Assembly: GCA_026708185.1 (NCBI GenBank)
Contig: JAPOVK010000018.1
Coordinates: 62,001-126,000 of the forward strand
DNA from: Gammaproteobacteria bacterium
GTDB taxonomy: Bacteria; Pseudomonadota; Gammaproteobacteria; Pseudomonadales; Azotimanducaceae
Reading direction: 5' to 3'
Length of the DNA stretch: 64,000 bases
The notes under the pieces were generated by a model, which worked only from the letters and a program-made list of their open reading frames with translations, was not told the origin of the DNA and did not search any database. The position numbers were made by a program, and so were the translations under genes. Of the stretch, positions 23,452-28,199 are shown piece after piece; within the stretch, counting starts at the first letter, position 1; each line of letters begins with the position of its first letter.

Positions 23452-24456
23452 ATGGCTGAGGACGTCAACGAACCCATCGCATACCCGACGCGACAGGCGA
23501 GGCCCGCGCGCTCGCGTCGCGCGCCGAAGACACCAATAGCGCTGAGCGGCTGCCGACCCCTCCGGATGACCGAAGCCGAGGTCGCCGACTACGACGGCCG
23601 CTACGAGTACTGGGACGCCGAGTCCGAAATCGCCTGGCAGGTCCGCGACGTGAGCCGTCAGCACGAGGAGCCCCGCACACGGCTCGTCGAGGTGGTCAAG
23701 GACATCGCCAAGGTGCGGGGCAAGCCCATCGCCATGTTCGGCTCGACCGACTTGCAGGAACGCGACGCCCGCGGCGCCCGGCTGGTTGCCGCAGAGGCCG
23801 ACGAGATCATCTACCTCGACCGCCCGGACGAGTTCCCCGACAACGTCGTCGTCGTCGGCCGCCTGCGCCTTCCCGACGTCGTCTTCGAGGTCGACCTCAC
23901 GACGGACGTCCGCGAACGCAAGCTCGCGCTCTACGCCTCGTGGGGCGTCCCGGAACTGTGGGTCGAAGTCCCCGAGGCGCCCATGCCTAGCAAGCGGAAA
24001 GCACCGGGCTTGACGATCCACGTCCTCCGCGAGGGCCGGTTCGAAATGTCCGCCGAGAGCGCTGCATTCCCGACCTGGATGGCGCGCGAAATCCACGCCG
24101 CACTGAACGAGCCGGTCTCGTCCGAGACCACCGTGAGCACGTTGCGCCGCGTCGGCGAGATCATGGCCCGCCAGTCCGGCACCGGACCGGACGACGATCC
24201 GTTCCTCGGGGCGGTACGCCGATCAAGTCGGCTCGCCGGCTGGCGTGAAGGCACGGCGGAAGGAAAGGCGGAAGGCTTGCTGGTAGAACGGCTGTCCATT
24301 CTCGAAGACCTGCTGGTCTCACGAGACATCCGCGTCGGAAGGCTCCGCGACATCGCGGATCGGATCGTCGGATTGCCACGTCGGGAGGTGGTTCGACATG
24401 CGCTCGCCTGCGTCGATTACGACGATTTCCTGCGGCGTCTGCCGCGCGCAGATTGA
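23452..24456 (+). CDS. Uma2-family (DUF820) PD-(D/E)XK nuclease-like protein
   Basis: This 334-residue protein has the Uma2 core in its middle: the region with YLDRPDEFPD, then PDVVFEVDLTTDVRERKLALYASWGVPELWVEV, where the PD, E and downstream basic residue match the restriction-endonuclease-like fold. The C-terminal third has the repeated GTAEGKAEGLL pattern and helices often seen in these families and in Rpn-like transposon nucleases. DUF820 proteins are numerous in cyanobacteria and patchy elsewhere, and their role is unresolved. It stands alone and is convergent with the peptide-modification-type operon. Confidence 0.8.
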   Translation: MAEDVNEPIAYPTRQARPARSRRAPKTPIALSGCRPLRMTEAEVADYDGRYEYWDAESEIAWQVRDVSRQHEEPRTRLVEVVKDIAKVRGKPIAMFGSTDLQERDARGARLVAAEADEIIYLDRPDEFPDNVVVVGRLRLPDVVFEVDLTTDVRERKLALYASWGVPELWVEVPEAPMPSKRKAPGLTIHVLREGRFEMSAESAAFPTWMAREIHAALNEPVSSETTVSTLRRVGEIMARQSGTGPDDDPFLGAVRRSSRLAGWREGTAEGKAEGLLVERLSILEDLLVSRDIRVGRLRDIADRIVGLPRREVVRHALACVDYDDFLRRLPRAD

Positions 24457-24464
24457 CTGCCAGG

Positions 24465-25436
24465 TCAGCTCGCAGTCACGGCGGCGGCGACGAGATCCCG
24501 AATCTGCCCCAGCATCTCGCCCTCGGCATCCGCGTCGTAGCCGTCGACGCGGGGCGTGTGCAAGTGGCCAACGGGGAACGTCGCGCCGAGTCGTTGGCGT
24601 AGCCTGAGCGCCCGGTACGCGACTTCGTTGGACAGGTAGCCGCCGCCGGACCCCGCGACGGCGGTGTCGTCCTTGAGTTCCGCCAACGCATCGGGCGTCA
24701 GGGATCCCCGCTCCAGGCTCGCTACCCGTCGGTTATCGCGAACGGGCCAGCGCCCGCGCGTCGCGGCCATGGCTCGCGCGGGCAGCGTGAATTGCAGGAA
24801 CTCGGGACCTTCAAGTCCCGCCGGTACCTGCGGCGCCGTCGGCGACCCGCCGCTCGCGACATTGTCGTTGTCGGGCGTCTGCGCGGAGCGCCGGAGTCCG
24901 GGGAAGCGCTCCAGGTCGAACGCGTCACGGCCCATGCTCACCGTCAGCAACAACCGCAAGCCCGCCTCGAAGTGCGGCGTCAGCAGCTGTTCGACGAATC
25001 CTTCGTCGAAGGCCGCGAAACTCACCGGCAGGATCGCGGTGCGGATCCGAGCGCCAGCGAGGAGCGTGCCATCGAGCGCGAGGGCCGCCAAACCGGACGG
25101 ATTACTCTGGGCGATGTTGCGATCCAGGTGGAAAGGATCGAAACCGGTCAGGAGCACGCGCCCCTCGGAACCTTGGAACTCGCCATCGAAGCCGCGCGCC
25201 GAACGTTCCATGGGCCCGCTGTCCCTGCCGGCCCGGCGCAACAGTTGCCGCAACTTCAAGCGCGCCCAGTACAGGGGCCGGTCGTCGAAGTGGCCGTCCT
25301 GAACGTCCTGCACGGCATGCGCCCACAAGCTCGCGCCGTCGCCGCTTGCCACAACCTCGTCGTAGCGGCTATGCAGACCGGCGGGTACGCGCCGCAGCCT
25401 CGCTTCTTCGACCGTCATCGCATCGCCGCCCGGCAA
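24465..25436 (-). CDS. Pyroglutamyl-peptidase-like protein (C15 fold) with Ser in place of the catalytic Cys
   Basis: The first 90 of 323 residues form an extension unlike the family. The C15-like domain then begins at RVLLTGFDPFHLDRN and continues through SNPSGLAALALDG, ILPVSF and LLLTVSMGRDAFDLERFPG, where Glu176 fits the catalytic Glu. It ends with GGGYLSNEVAYRAL and VGHLHTPRV, where His293 fits the catalytic His. In true pyroglutamyl peptidases the nucleophile is Cys in a YxCN-type motif; here it is Ser269 (codon TCC, one base from TGC). The protein may be an inactive binder or a serine-based variant. It is the last gene of an operon with a glutaminyl cyclase, whose product is exactly what C15 enzymes remove. 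It has no signal peptide. Confidence 0.72.
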   Translation of the reverse strand: MPGGDAMTVEEARLRRVPAGLHSRYDEVVASGDGASLWAHAVQDVQDGHFDDRPLYWARLKLRQLLRRAGRDSGPMERSARGFDGEFQGSEGRVLLTGFDPFHLDRNIAQSNPSGLAALALDGTLLAGARIRTAILPVSFAAFDEGFVEQLLTPHFEAGLRLLLTVSMGRDAFDLERFPGLRRSAQTPDNDNVASGGSPTAPQVPAGLEGPEFLQFTLPARAMAATRGRWPVRDNRRVASLERGSLTPDALAELKDDTAVAGSGGGYLSNEVAYRALRLRQRLGATFPVGHLHTPRVDGYDADAEGEMLGQIRDLVAAAVTAS

Positions 25437-25458
25437 CGCGTCGCCGCCGGCGACGCGC

Positions 25459-26220
25459 CTATTCGAAGGTCACCTCGAACATCCGCGGCCACAGTTTCCC
25501 CGTCAAGTAGAAGCGCTCGGCCACCGGGTCGAAGGCGATGCCGTTCAAGACGTCGGCATCGGCCGCTTCATCGGCATCGAGCAGTCCCGACGCGTCGATC
25601 CACGCCGTGACCTCTCCGGTGACCGGATCGATGCGTACCAGGAAGTCCTGCCCGAAAACGTTGGCGTAGACCGCACCGGCCGCACACTCCAACTCGTTGA
25701 GGCCCGCGACCGGCCGACCTGAGGCGGTTACGGCGATGTGACCCGCAGCTGCAAAGGAATCGGTCTCGCGAAAGGTCAGCGTGCTTGAACCGTCGCTCAT
25801 GACGAACCGCACTCCGTCGTGGCACAGCCCCCAGCCCTCGCCCCGGTAGGACTTGAAACCCAAGGGCGCGAAATCGTCCCCGCGGAACACGTAGGCGCGC
25901 TCCGCATGCCAGGTCAGCATGACGAGTCGGTCCTCGGCACGCGCCAGCCCCTCGCCGAAGTGCATCCGCGAGATCGGGACGCGCCGCTCGACGTCCCCGG
26001 TCGCGGGATCCAGTTGGCGAAGCTCGGAACGTCCTCGCCGGCCCGTGCTCTCGAAGATCTTGCCGTCGAACCAAAGAAGGCCTTGCGTGAACGCCTCCGG
26101 GTCGTGCGCAAGCACCCGGTGCACGTTGACGGCCAGTTGGCGCGGCGCGTCATCCGCGCGGGCGACGGCTGGAACGCATGCTGCCAGAGACAAGATGCAG
26201 ATCAGGCCCCGCACGGCCAC
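25459..26220 (-). CDS. Glutaminyl-peptide cyclotransferase (bacterial/plant type), secreted
   Basis: This 253-residue protein converts N-terminal Gln of peptides to pyroglutamate. A signal peptide (MAVRGLICILSLAACVPAVARA) sends it to the periplasm or outside. The five-bladed propeller family is recognised by FTQGLLWFDGKIFESTGRRG, HFGEGLA, LTWHAERAYVF, GEGWGLCHDG, MSDGSSTLTF, GLNELECAAGAVYANVFG, RIDPVTGEVTAWID and DVLNGIAFDP. These are the plant/bacterial-type hallmarks and all are intact. It starts at GTG 26220 directly after the stop of the PAL-like gene and is followed after 22 bases by the C15-like gene. Confidence 0.93.
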   Translation of the reverse strand: MAVRGLICILSLAACVPAVARADDAPRQLAVNVHRVLAHDPEAFTQGLLWFDGKIFESTGRRGRSELRQLDPATGDVERRVPISRMHFGEGLARAEDRLVMLTWHAERAYVFRGDDFAPLGFKSYRGEGWGLCHDGVRFVMSDGSSTLTFRETDSFAAAGHIAVTASGRPVAGLNELECAAGAVYANVFGQDFLVRIDPVTGEVTAWIDASGLLDADEAADADVLNGIAFDPVAERFYLTGKLWPRMFEVTFE

Positions 26221-27189
26221 CTAGCCGCGGATCCGCGCGAACTTCTGCAAGGAGTGACAGTCGAGCGGCACAAGGCCCCGGTTGCCGCCCGCGCTGACGA
26301 TTACCTCCGCGACGTACAGATCGCCTCGGGAGTCCGCCCAAATCCCGTGGGGCGCGAAGAAGTTGCCCGGCTGGACCGGGTCGTCGCCGCCGAACCGATG
26401 TATCACCTCGCCGTCGAGGTCGAGCAGCGTGACGCGGGCGTGCGGCGTGTGCGGGAGGATCTCGACATCGGGATCACGACCGGCGATCTCGCCCAGCTCA
26501 GCCACGTAGAGGACGTCGTCATCGTCGATGAACAGGTCGTCCGGGCGGCTGATGTGCGTCCACTCCCTGACGTAGTCGCCATTGGGCTTGAAAACCTGAA
26601 TTCGCGAATTCTCGCGGTCGGCGACGTAGACGGTGTCGTCGCGGTCCACGGCGATGGCGTGGGGGAGCCGGAACTCGCCGGGCCCGCGGCCCGGTTCGCC
26701 CCAGGAGAACTGGTGTTCGCCGTCGCCGCCGAACTTGTGCACGCGGGCATTGCCGTAGCCGTCCGCAACATACAGTTCGCCGGTACTCGAAAGGGCCACA
26801 TTCGTGACCCGATTGAACGGTCCGCCGCCGAATTGCACCGGCGTCTTGCCGGGCACAAAGCCCGTGTCGGCGGGCCGGTCCTTCTCGCCCAGGGTCCGCT
26901 TCAGATCGCCGTCCGGCGTGAAGATGCGTACCGTGTGGTCGAAATTGTCGGCCAGGTAGATGCTGTCGTCCGGCCCAATGTAGATGCCATGGGCGTTGGT
27001 GAAGACGCCCTCGCCCCAGGCGTCAACGAAGTTGCCGTCGGCGTCGAACACGATCACCGGGTGCTCGCCGCGGTTGAACGCGTAGACCCGATCCTGCGAG
27101 TCCGTGGCAACGCCCGCCACCTCGACGAAACTCCAGCCCTCGGGGAGCTTCTCCCACCCCTCGATCACTTCGAATTCGATACGCGCCAC
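26221..27189 (-). CDS. NHL beta-propeller resembling peptidyl-alpha-hydroxyglycine amidating lyase (PAL)
   Basis: I prefer GTG 27189 (322 residues) over an in-frame ATG 48 bases upstream. Six NHL-type blades are visible. Three blade-start histidines (TNAHGIYIG His67, RLPHAIAVD His177, FAPHGIWAD His281) match the zinc-binding His pattern of the PAL domain. DGYGNARVHKF and VADRENSRIQVF closely resemble PAL segments that carry the catalytic Tyr and Arg; the usual Cys in DGYCNSR is Gly here. Animal PAL cleaves hydroxyglycine-extended peptides to give C-terminal amides. No monooxygenase partner is nearby and no signal peptide is seen, so the substrate is open. It is the first gene of the operon with glutaminyl cyclase. 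Confidence 0.8.
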   Translation of the reverse strand: MARIEFEVIEGWEKLPEGWSFVEVAGVATDSQDRVYAFNRGEHPVIVFDADGNFVDAWGEGVFTNAHGIYIGPDDSIYLADNFDHTVRIFTPDGDLKRTLGEKDRPADTGFVPGKTPVQFGGGPFNRVTNVALSSTGELYVADGYGNARVHKFGGDGEHQFSWGEPGRGPGEFRLPHAIAVDRDDTVYVADRENSRIQVFKPNGDYVREWTHISRPDDLFIDDDDVLYVAELGEIAGRDPDVEILPHTPHARVTLLDLDGEVIHRFGGDDPVQPGNFFAPHGIWADSRGDLYVAEVIVSAGGNRGLVPLDCHSLQKFARIRG

Positions 27190-27254
27190 GAGCAAGCTCC
27201 GCGAGGACGTTCGGCGGCAATGATACGCTTGCGGCACAACCGAAGGAGATAACC

Positions 27255-28199
27255 ATGAGCCCCGAACGCAAACCCCACTTCGGCGTCACCTTGCCCCAGA
27301 TCAAGCGGCCTTGGGTCGCCGCCGCCCAAGCCGCGAGCGGTTTCGAAGCGATGGGCTACGACTCGCTGTGGGTATGCGACCACCTGTACGGCCCGCAGTC
27401 CCCGCAACTGCCGATCTTGGAAGCCTGGTCGATGATCTCGGCGGTCGCGGCCATCACCGAGCGCGTAGAAATCGGCACCCTCGTGACGCCCGTGGGCATG
27501 CGCAACCCGGCGCACCTCGGGAAGGTCATCGCCACCGTGGACAACATCGCCGGTGGTCGCGTGATCGCGGGCCTCGGTGGCGGCTGGATGCCGCGCGAGT
27601 TCACGGACTTCGGCATGCCCTTCCTCGGCACCGGCGAACGACTTAAACAGCTCGCCGAAACCGTCGCGCTGCTCAAGCGCATGTGGGGCGACGAAACGGA
27701 AGTGTCCTACGACGGCGACTACGTCCATGCGGACAACGTCGTCTGCCAGCCGAAGCCGCCGCGGCGCGTGCCGATACTCATCGGTGGGGCCGGCGAACAG
27801 GTGACGCTGAAGATCGTCGCCCGCGAGGCCGACATCTGGAACAACCTCGCCGGCCAGCAGGCGGCCCTCGGCCACAAGATCGAAGTGCTCAAGGGCCACT
27901 GCGACGCCGCCGGCCGGGATCCGGCGAGCATCACGGCGAGCCAGCAGTGTCTCGTCACCGTGGCGCCGAACGCGGAGAGCGCCGGGCCCATGGCGGATCG
28001 CGCTCAGAAGATCTTCGGCGGTCACATGGGTGACCCGAAAGGTCCGCTCGCCATCACCGGAACGCCCGAGCGGTGCGCCGAGCAGATCCAGAAGCACATC
28101 GACCTCGGTTGCACGATGTTCATCATGGAGTTCTTCGGCAAGGACACGCTGGAGCCTGCGCAGTTGTTCGCGGAGGAAGTCTTGCCGGCCTTCCGGTAA
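27255..28199 (+). CDS. LLM-class flavin (F420- or FMN-)dependent oxidoreductase
   Basis: This 314-residue luciferase-like TIM-barrel protein starts at ATG 27255 after AAGGAGA. Family hallmarks are HFGVTLPQ, the AEAxGYDSLWVCDHLY-type segment, ERVEIGTLVTPVGMRNPAHLGKVIATVDNIAGGRVIAGLGGGW and VPILIGGAGEQVTLKIVAREADIWNN. Members use FMN or deazaflavin F420 to oxidise or reduce unknown substrates. Sequence reading alone does not fix the cofactor. It is divergent from the PAL-like gene, with a 65-base gap. Confidence 0.9.
   Translation: MSPERKPHFGVTLPQIKRPWVAAAQAASGFEAMGYDSLWVCDHLYGPQSPQLPILEAWSMISAVAAITERVEIGTLVTPVGMRNPAHLGKVIATVDNIAGGRVIAGLGGGWMPREFTDFGMPFLGTGERLKQLAETVALLKRMWGDETEVSYDGDYVHADNVVCQPKPPRRVPILIGGAGEQVTLKIVAREADIWNNLAGQQAALGHKIEVLKGHCDAAGRDPASITASQQCLVTVAPNAESAGPMADRAQKIFGGHMGDPKGPLAITGTPERCAEQIQKHIDLGCTMFIMEFFGKDTLEPAQLFAEEVLPAFR

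Follow-up and report, generated by a model that had tools for sequence, protein, structure and literature searches.

An LLM-class oxidoreductase gene is a steadier neighbour of a PAL-like propeller gene than the glutaminyl cyclase and C15-like genes in a gammaproteobacterial family

The window analysed here is a stretch of 64,000 nucleotides from a gammaproteobacterial contig (JAPOVK010000018.1). Its minus strand holds, at positions 24465-27189, three intact and tightly packed open reading frames that encode a PAL-like propeller protein, a glutaminyl cyclase (QC), and a C15-like protein (Table 1). The PAL-like gene starts with GTG at 27189, in a frame that is open up to 27237, and the QC gene starts with a GTG directly after the PAL-like stop codon. 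For the C15-like gene, the ATG at 25418, which follows QC by 40 bases and lies near where homologues in the genus begin, is the more likely start, with a TTG at 25436, 22 bases after QC, as the alternative. A gene for an LLM-class oxidoreductase diverges from the PAL-like gene, and the intergenic region presumably holds both promoters; the corresponding regions measure 63-254 bases in the 15 loci listed, with starts assumed. Neighboring genes were called by our own ORF picking and tblastn rather than by a gene caller.

Table 1. Positions of the genes and the intergenic region at the locus, numbered from the first base of the window
Feature	Positions	Strand	Evidence
PAL-like six-bladed NHL propeller, P0001, 322 aa	26221-27189	-	NHL 1.1e-24
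Type I (five-bladed propeller family) glutaminyl cyclase, Sec-type signal peptide, P0002, 253 aa	25459-26220	-	PF05096 4e-84
C15-like protein, P0003, 317 aa	24465-25418	-	PF01470 1.9e-11, partial
LLM-class (luciferase-like, flavin or F420) oxidoreductase, divergent from PAL	27255-28199	+	Bac_luciferase PF00296 1.5e-46
PAL/LLM intergenic region, 65 bases	27190-27254		ORF coordinates
Amidase PF01425	21854-23299	+	PF01425 1.8e-91; NCBIfam 'amidase' NF004816 over cut-off

All three minus-strand genes are under purifying selection, with pN/pS of 0.06-0.53 in three genome pairs. By gene, the values are 0.06-0.16 for PAL, 0.04-0.22 for LLM, 0.19-0.38 for QC, and 0.31-0.53 for C15; the PAL and LLM genes are similar in their evolution, and the C15-like gene is the fastest of the four compared.

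The PAL-like protein is predicted to have the six-bladed NHL propeller fold of rat PAL (3fvz). A sequence search matches the two at 77.7 bits, with 31-34% identity over about 260 residues, and a Foldseek search with the structure model (pLDDT 71, pTM 0.79) returns 3fvz at rank 3 (TM 0.71/0.69). All six rat PAL active-site residues are kept: R40, H67, Y145, H177, R192, and H281 align with PAL R533, H585, Y654, H690, R706, and H786, of which we take His585, His690, and His786 to be the zinc ligands and Arg533, Tyr654, and Arg706 to be further active-site residues. Three alignment modes all show the six unchanged in each of the 15 family members aligned. Among 32 homologues sampled more widely, with identities as low as 32%, all retain R533, H585, and H690, 31 retain R706, and 30 each retain Y654 and H786. 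PAL Met784 and Asp787 are replaced by Ala and Gly, which we count against the reading favored below. Unlike rat PAL, the protein is free-standing, has no PHM domain and no signal peptide visible by eye, and is linked to an LLM gene rather than to a copper PHM. Its residues mark it as a putative Zn-dependent carbinolamide/alpha-hydroxyglycine lyase.

P0002 is assigned as a type I glutaminyl cyclase by its full-length Glu_cyclase_2 domain, which covers profile positions 6-249 of 249. The solved QCs 3mbr, presumably the Xanthomonas enzyme, and 3nol (Zymomonas) match it at 1.1e-51 and 3.1e-50 (179 and 175 bits), likewise over the full length and with a signal peptide; that of P0002 is Sec-type, as judged by eye, and no other member of the trio has one. 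The window QC differs from 3mbr in having Gln where 3mbr has Glu in the motif AFTEG, and from both in sitting in a PAL operon. An earlier, sequence-only reading had described this locus as a minus-strand operon of three genes, with a PAL homologue bearing the PAL histidines, a DGYxNAR motif (DGYGNAR here), and a VADRENSRIQ motif, and with an intact secreted QC; the coordinates, motifs, active site, near-complete QC profile, and signal peptide all agree with that description.

The same reading's "C15-like" label stands as a family resemblance. The third protein matches Peptidase_C15 at 44.8 bits, over the Pfam cut-off, across profile positions 2-109 of 204 only, and scores 20-40 bits against NCBIfam C15 models with cut-offs of 199-382. 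The catalytic triad of C15 enzymes is Glu/Cys/His. Glu and His are kept here, and the Cys, whose loss had gone unnoticed, gives way to Ser in every sequence aligned (22 of 22): 17 from the family, including that of the window, and 5 from plasmids, for which seven records matched. The 17 family sequences represent the 19 genomes with a match less G006 and G032, whose copies are broken. Because of this replacement, removal of pyroglutamate caps cannot be assumed, and the protein is probably not a cysteine pyroglutamyl peptidase. It also differs from true C15 enzymes in an extra N-terminal DDRxLYWxRL region. No signal peptide is seen by eye, and its structure model (pLDDT 36) is useless. The gene is the sole PF01470 match in its genome, where we found no canonical C15 peptidase elsewhere; a search of genome contigs with P0003 returned one locus, 84% identical, in a gammaproteobacterial MAG. 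A plasmid protein encoded beside an OXA-48-like gene is 44% identical and shares the Ser and the N-terminal region, and, unlike it, the window copy has no signal peptide. From shared gene order, the plasmid protein would be the "peptidase C15" orf that, in PMC3480492, adjoins blaOXA-48-like genes in Shewanella. The motifs GFDPF, LERFP, and GHxHxP are common to that plasmid protein, C15 enzymes, and the window protein.

The LLM gene, overlooked by a sequence-only reading whose focus was the PAL, QC, and C15-like genes that are indeed present, is a steadier PAL partner than either QC or the C15-like gene. It adjoins PAL divergently in 16 of 19 PAL loci of the window's family, including one in another genus (G021), whereas QC lies within two genes of PAL in 11 and the C15-like gene in 7. 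Across 58 genomes, 18 have both PAL and LLM, 1 has PAL only, 3 have LLM only, and 36, G012 among them, have neither, at thresholds of at least 74% identity for PAL and E 1e-90 for LLM; these counts take in PAL orthologues only and leave out weaker matches in G027 and G032 and a second one in G035. Fisher tests, uncorrected for relatedness, give 5e-11 for the 58 genomes and 0.0066 for the 42 outside the genus. Related genomes in these counts are not independent of one another. PAL and LLM lie on different contigs in G022 and G026. The window genome has 48 Bac_luciferase matches, so a single PAL-LLM adjacency is not rare by itself. The best NCBIfam matches of the LLM protein are F420 subfamilies, below cut-off, and the genome encodes a CofH-type F420 synthase, over cut-off; for these reasons, the LLM protein may be an F420 dehydrogenase or reductase and not a monooxygenase.

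Flavin-type enzymes also occur near PAL-like genes outside the family. All 9 g402 genomes have an FMO-like monooxygenase gene upstream of the PAL-like gene and on its strand, directly adjacent in 7 (one genome scanned by Pfam, the others by similarity to it). In 2 of 2 g539 genomes, an LLM gene lies directly downstream; at E 1e-10, one of these genomes has no other Bac_luciferase match and the second has one more. On a Rhodococcus plasmid, an LLM gene lies two genes downstream; the best-matching subfamilies of the g539 and Rhodococcus proteins differ from that of the window LLM. S. fredii has Rieske and VanB-type reductase genes near its PAL-like gene. Among annotated or scanned neighbors, flavin monooxygenases are absent at L104, L105, L124, L125, L135-L138, L141, and L142 and beside the PAL-like genes on Bradyrhizobium, Mesorhizobium, Thioclava, and Priestia plasmids. 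Neither a QC nor a C15-like gene was found near PAL-like genes in 29 loci outside the family. Other neighbors are a hydantoin racemase with an amidase, a hydantoinase/oxoprolinase, a dihydropyrimidinase, an Ldh_2 protein in G022, and, in Mesorhizobium, G545, Caballeronia, and G1003, 2-hydroxyacid dehydrogenases; genes of these kinds suit a role in the metabolism of amides or glyoxylate. Plasmid records with a PAL-like match number 21, of which ten regions were opened (the unannotated H3, H6, and H18 were scanned partly by ORF and Pfam). Four of the 21 carry the animal enzyme's name. These four are 30-45% identical to the window protein and differ from it in gene context; of the three aligned, two keep all six PAL residues and the third keeps five, having lost R706. 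The papers found hold no description of the function of bacterial PAL homologues.

We favor, at slightly less than an even chance, a reading in which the core of the locus is an oxidoreductase and PAL-like lyase pair that would act on small molecules in the cytosol, with QC and the C15-like protein as lineage-specific neighbors. The catalysis, substrate, LLM cofactor, and shared pathway that we infer for the pair are as follows. The LLM-class flavin (or F420) enzyme would oxidize a carbon adjacent to an amide-type nitrogen and so produce a carbinolamide of fair stability, for example an N-acyl-alpha-hydroxyglycine. The PAL-like propeller, with three His for Zn and an Arg/Tyr pocket, would cleave this product, releasing an amide together with glyoxylate or a different carbonyl compound. 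The pair would then be an analogue of animal PHM and PAL in small-molecule catabolism, with a flavin-type enzyme replacing the copper PHM. QC would be a periplasmic accessory gene that joined the operon in one genus, and the C15-like gene an older neighbor of uncertain function. The amidase is possibly a downstream enzyme, a weak link; its gene is close to the trio in G007 as well and adjoins a decayed copy in G006 (G006:C47). Precedents for parts of this scheme are described in two papers: glyoxylate is a product of NTA monooxygenase, a two-component enzyme that uses FMN (PMC3169409), and methylguanidine is demethylated by a bacterial oxygenase with a dedicated lyase for a stable hemiaminal (MgdH/MgdL; PMC12508155). 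The latter system differs from the proposed pair in using a dioxygenase rather than a flavin enzyme and, by its authors' statement there, a lyase that is not homologous to PAL.

The sequence-only reading had instead proposed that the trio makes, protects, or senses end-modified peptides, with PAL amidating the C-terminus, QC capping the N-terminus, and the C15 enzyme uncapping it. Its expectation that the trio recurs holds, since the three genes are adjacent in 5 of 58 genomes, the window's own included, and the intact PAL active site, the near-full QC profile, and purifying selection on all three genes likewise favor it. The claim that all three enzymes act on the same peptide ends is nevertheless weak because QC alone has a signal peptide, which by eye places the proteins in different compartments, because Ser replaces the catalytic Cys in the C15-like protein, and because no QC or C15-like gene was found near PAL in the 29 outside loci. 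Within this sample, only a single genus has the trio, QC and C15 come and go independently, and the oxidoreductase is the steadier partner; we consider the proposal quite improbable. A copper monooxygenase, which that reading had suggested seeking, has a counterpart elsewhere in the genome, a PF03712 protein with a signal peptide, a redoxin-like start, and a CxxCH motif (by eye), and this too speaks for peptide amidation. Such genes do not track PAL: at E 1e-3, Cu2_monoox_C matches turn up in 4 of the 19 genomes with PAL and in 5 of the 39 without it, and 5 of all 58 genomes have a match over cut-off. Copper PHM (PF01082/PF03712) is not among the ten locus proteins scanned, so that we rejected it as the PAL partner. 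A version with a flavin counterpart of animal PAM, in which the LLM or FMO enzyme would hydroxylate peptides or peptide-like metabolites at their glycine carbon, PAL would complete C-terminal amidation, and, in this genus, the linked QC would cap N-termini and seal both ends of secreted peptides, seems barely probable.

If the LLM gene were an unrelated neighbor, the PAL-like protein could be a ureidoglycolate- or hydantoin-type lyase, working without an oxygenase partner on N-carbamoyl or N-acyl glycolates that hydrolases or dehydrogenases supply. PAL and ureidoglycolate-type lyase reactions are chemically akin, the hydantoinase, hydantoin racemase, oxoprolinase, dihydropyrimidinase, and amidase genes near PAL-like genes suit such a role, and the Ldh_2 neighbor in G022 has ureidoglycolate dehydrogenase as its best NCBIfam match, below cut-off. 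Against this, LLM and PAL co-occur and are linked in the window's family, and PAL-like genes of three other lineages have flavin monooxygenase genes nearby; we regard this alternative as unlikely but worth taking seriously. It is distinctly unlikely that the PAL-like and C15-like proteins are an older functional pair, with QC inserted late and the C15-like protein working on what PAL uses or releases, as an amidase, lactamase, or peptidase that depends on its Ser. The retained Glu and His beside the invariant Ser would suit such an enzyme, and where the C15-like gene lies downstream of PAL, the intervening genes differ (an HTH gene in G015, Ldh_2 in G022); the linkage in G022, another genus, counts against our favored reading. 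Yet the C15-like gene is away from any PAL gene in 11 of the 19 genomes with a match, evolves fastest, and has plasmid homologues with signal peptides (by eye) and no PAL in the annotated regions. A role for the PAL-like protein as an NHL propeller that binds or scaffolds without catalysis, as might be thought from Thin outscoring PAL in sequence and fold searches and TRIM71 in sequence, is very improbable given the six active-site residues, invariant in the family and nearly so in the wider set.

The pairing favored here, of an oxidoreductase with a PAL-like lyase, is a directly testable claim on bacterial proteins that bear the animal PAL name. If a flavin-type enzyme supplies the PAL-like substrate, the two-step N-dealkylation of PHM and PAL would have been built with unrelated oxygenases, and the bacterial pairs would be candidate tools for amide chemistry. 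The Ser-for-Cys C15-like family, a member of which appears as an OXA-48-type gene neighbor in one paper, merits its own assay.

The sequence-only reading described three genes packed tightly into one minus-strand operon, and this description holds. The three open reading frames at 24465-27189 are intact and closely spaced: the PAL-like frame ends at 26221, the frame of the glutaminyl cyclase (QC) starts with a GTG at 26220, and the C15-like frame starts either at a TTG 22 bases or at an ATG 40 bases past QC. These genes and the luciferase-like oxidoreductase gene (LLM) are under purifying selection, as judged from pN/pS between the window's genome and three relatives, with the strongest constraint on LLM and PAL (0.04-0.22), followed by QC (0.19-0.38) and C15 (0.31-0.53). 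On one side of the trio, an intact Uma2-like gene (23452-24456) scores below the Pfam cut-off and aligns only in fragments with genome G007 (L042 10523-10851); on the other, an apiosidase-like glycosidase gene (PF13204; 28184-29524) adjoins LLM, an adjacency kept in several relatives.

Genes of the trio and the neighboring oxidoreductase gene in the window
Gene	Position	Strand	Pfam match or orientation
PAL-like		minus	NHL, 1.1e-24
QC		minus	Glu_cyclase_2, 4e-84, nearly whole profile
C15-like		minus	Peptidase_C15, 1.9e-11, profile positions 2-109 of 204
LLM	27255-28196		divergent from PAL

The trio is real and recurring, but it is confined to one genus, and its C15 member lacks the nucleophile. 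Nineteen of 58 genomes carry an orthologue of PAL (74% identity or more). LLM lies divergently next to it in 16 of these (all 15 PAL-bearing genomes of the genus plus G021), QC is adjacent in 11, and 7 have a C15-like gene at most two genes away. All three trio genes occur together in five of the 58 genomes, G000 (the window's genome), G001, G007, G008, and G013, with the PAL frame split in G008. One gene separates PAL from C15 in G015 (HTH) and in G022 (Ldh_2), and G012 has the QC-C15 pair without PAL or LLM. The G022 dehydrogenase (L055 7865-8953) has ureidoglycolate dehydrogenase as its best NCBIfam match, below cut-off. Beside its main copy, G006 carries a second, decayed copy of the locus on short contig 47 (L053), with the end of PAL, broken QC and C15-like frames, and the amidase and NMO seen in the window, which it resembles more than the main copy does. 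Across the 58 genomes, PAL and LLM are both present in 18, PAL alone in 1, LLM alone in 3, and neither in 36 (Fisher 5e-11; 0.0066 in the 42 genomes outside the genus; both uncorrected for relatedness).

The PAL-like protein aligns with rat PAL (3fvz) over a single collinear stretch (phmmer, 77.7 bits), with repeat-rich TRIM, Thin, and designed propellers scoring higher. A Foldseek search with an AlphaFold model built from two sequences (pLDDT 71, pTM 0.79) places 3fvz third, behind two Thin entries. When the family is aligned with rat PAL, three MAFFT modes match R533, H585, Y654, H690, R706, and H786, which we take to be the zinc ligands and catalytic or binding residues, to R40, H67, Y145, H177, R192, and H281 of the PAL-like protein; these are identical in 15 of 15 aligned family members. 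M784 and D787 of the rat enzyme are replaced by Ala and Gly. In a wider set of 32 homologues, each of the six residues is kept in 30 to 32, with Y654 and H786 lost in distant paralogues of G027 and G032 and R706 in one Mesorhizobium plasmid protein. No signal peptide was seen by eye in the window's protein. Full-text searches, with subscription literature mostly outside their reach, returned no paper treating a bacterial PAL homologue in its title or the start of its abstract.

By sequence, the QC (P0002) belongs to type I, is of full length, and carries a signal peptide. The Glu in the AFTEG motif of 3mbr, presumably the Xanthomonas QC structure, is Gln in P0002. This Glu is probably residue 45 of the X. 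campestris QC, whose E45Q variant is termed a gain-of-function mutant in one report (PMC3986218); a paper on type II QC describes the role of type I QC as not fully known (PMC7948796). C15-like matches occur in 19 of the 58 genomes, the window's included. G006 and G032 have broken copies, which were set aside; in all of the other 17, which were aligned, Ser stands at the catalytic Cys position, and the Glu of LERFP and the His of GHxHxP are retained. Of seven matching plasmid records, two from Tenacibaculum were left out; the other five (Enterobacter, Streptomyces, Kitasatospora, Tsukamurella, and Burkholderia) were aligned, and all carry this Ser. By eye, signal or lipoprotein peptides start several relatives, and none was seen in the proteins of the window's genus. 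NCBIfam pyroglutamyl-peptidase models give the window's C15-like protein (P0003) 20-40 bits against cut-offs of 199-382. With Ser in place of the catalytic Cys, a pyroglutamyl-peptidase role should not be assumed. Plasmids of Proteobacteria and Actinomycetota also carry members of this family, which has the Ser and an additional DDRxLYWxRL region. The Enterobacter plasmid copy adjoins an OXA-48-type and a sprT-type gene (the relative of P0003 with the OXA-48-type neighbor lies at L087 4857-6014); a "peptidase C15" orf in Shewanella is reported with that gene order (PMC3480492).

Broader, and of greater interest, is the occurrence of flavin-type oxidoreductase genes near that of a PAL-type lyase in four lineages. 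At E 1e-45, PAL-like genes occur in 2 of 369 class members and 12 of 398 phylum members, the window's genome counted in both, and in 17 of 297 members of an order inferred as alphaproteobacterial. In genus g402, outside the family, a gene resembling flavin monooxygenases (PF00743 3e-19 and Pyr_redox_3 2e-21 in G451) lies upstream of PAL on the same strand in nine of nine genomes, directly adjacent in seven. In genus g539, also outside the family, PAL is directly followed in both genomes by an LLM gene that scores over the cut-off for the MsnO8 family; at E 1e-10, Bac_luciferase matches in these genomes number one in the 5.3 Mb of G869 and two in G901. A Rhodococcus plasmid carries PAL, SDR, and LLM in succession. 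PAL-like genes neighbor Rieske, VanB-type, and amidohydrolase genes in S. fredii, VanB-type and amidohydrolase genes in Methylobacterium, and elsewhere hydantoinase/oxoprolinase, dihydropyrimidinase, hydantoin racemase and amidase, or 2-hydroxyacid dehydrogenase genes; none of these types was seen among the genes annotated or scanned in Priestia, L124, L135, and L136. QC and C15-like genes were absent from the flanks (about 6-8 kb; tblastn, E 1e-4) in all 29 loci outside the family (21 + 8, nine from one genus).

Homology, conserved residues, linkage, and co-occurrence suggest a pathway in which a flavin-type enzyme would make a carbinolamide that the PAL-like enzyme would then cleave. Each half has a precedent: an NTA monooxygenase using reduced FMN releases glyoxylate (PMC3169409), and methylguanidine is demethylated by a dioxygenase and a lyase without PAL homology, PAL being the only similar activity known to those authors (PMC12508155). 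Several observations count against this pathway. The window's genome has a CofH-type F420 synthase and 48 Bac_luciferase matches, the best NCBIfam matches of the window's LLM are F420 subfamilies (below cut-off), the LLM proteins of other lineages best match other subfamilies, and many PAL-like loci show no flavin monooxygenase among the neighbors annotated or scanned.

LLM genes are greatly expanded in two genomes, with 48 Bac_luciferase matches at E 1e-10 in G000 (5.1 Mb) and 44 in G021 (4.0 Mb). At E 1e-3, nine of the 58 genomes have a match to the copper type II monooxygenase C-terminal domain, five of them over cut-off. In G000 the domain (25 bits; contig 2, 100869-101225) lies in a 656-residue protein (L085 172-2142) that has, by eye, a signal peptide, a redoxin-like start, and a CxxCH motif.
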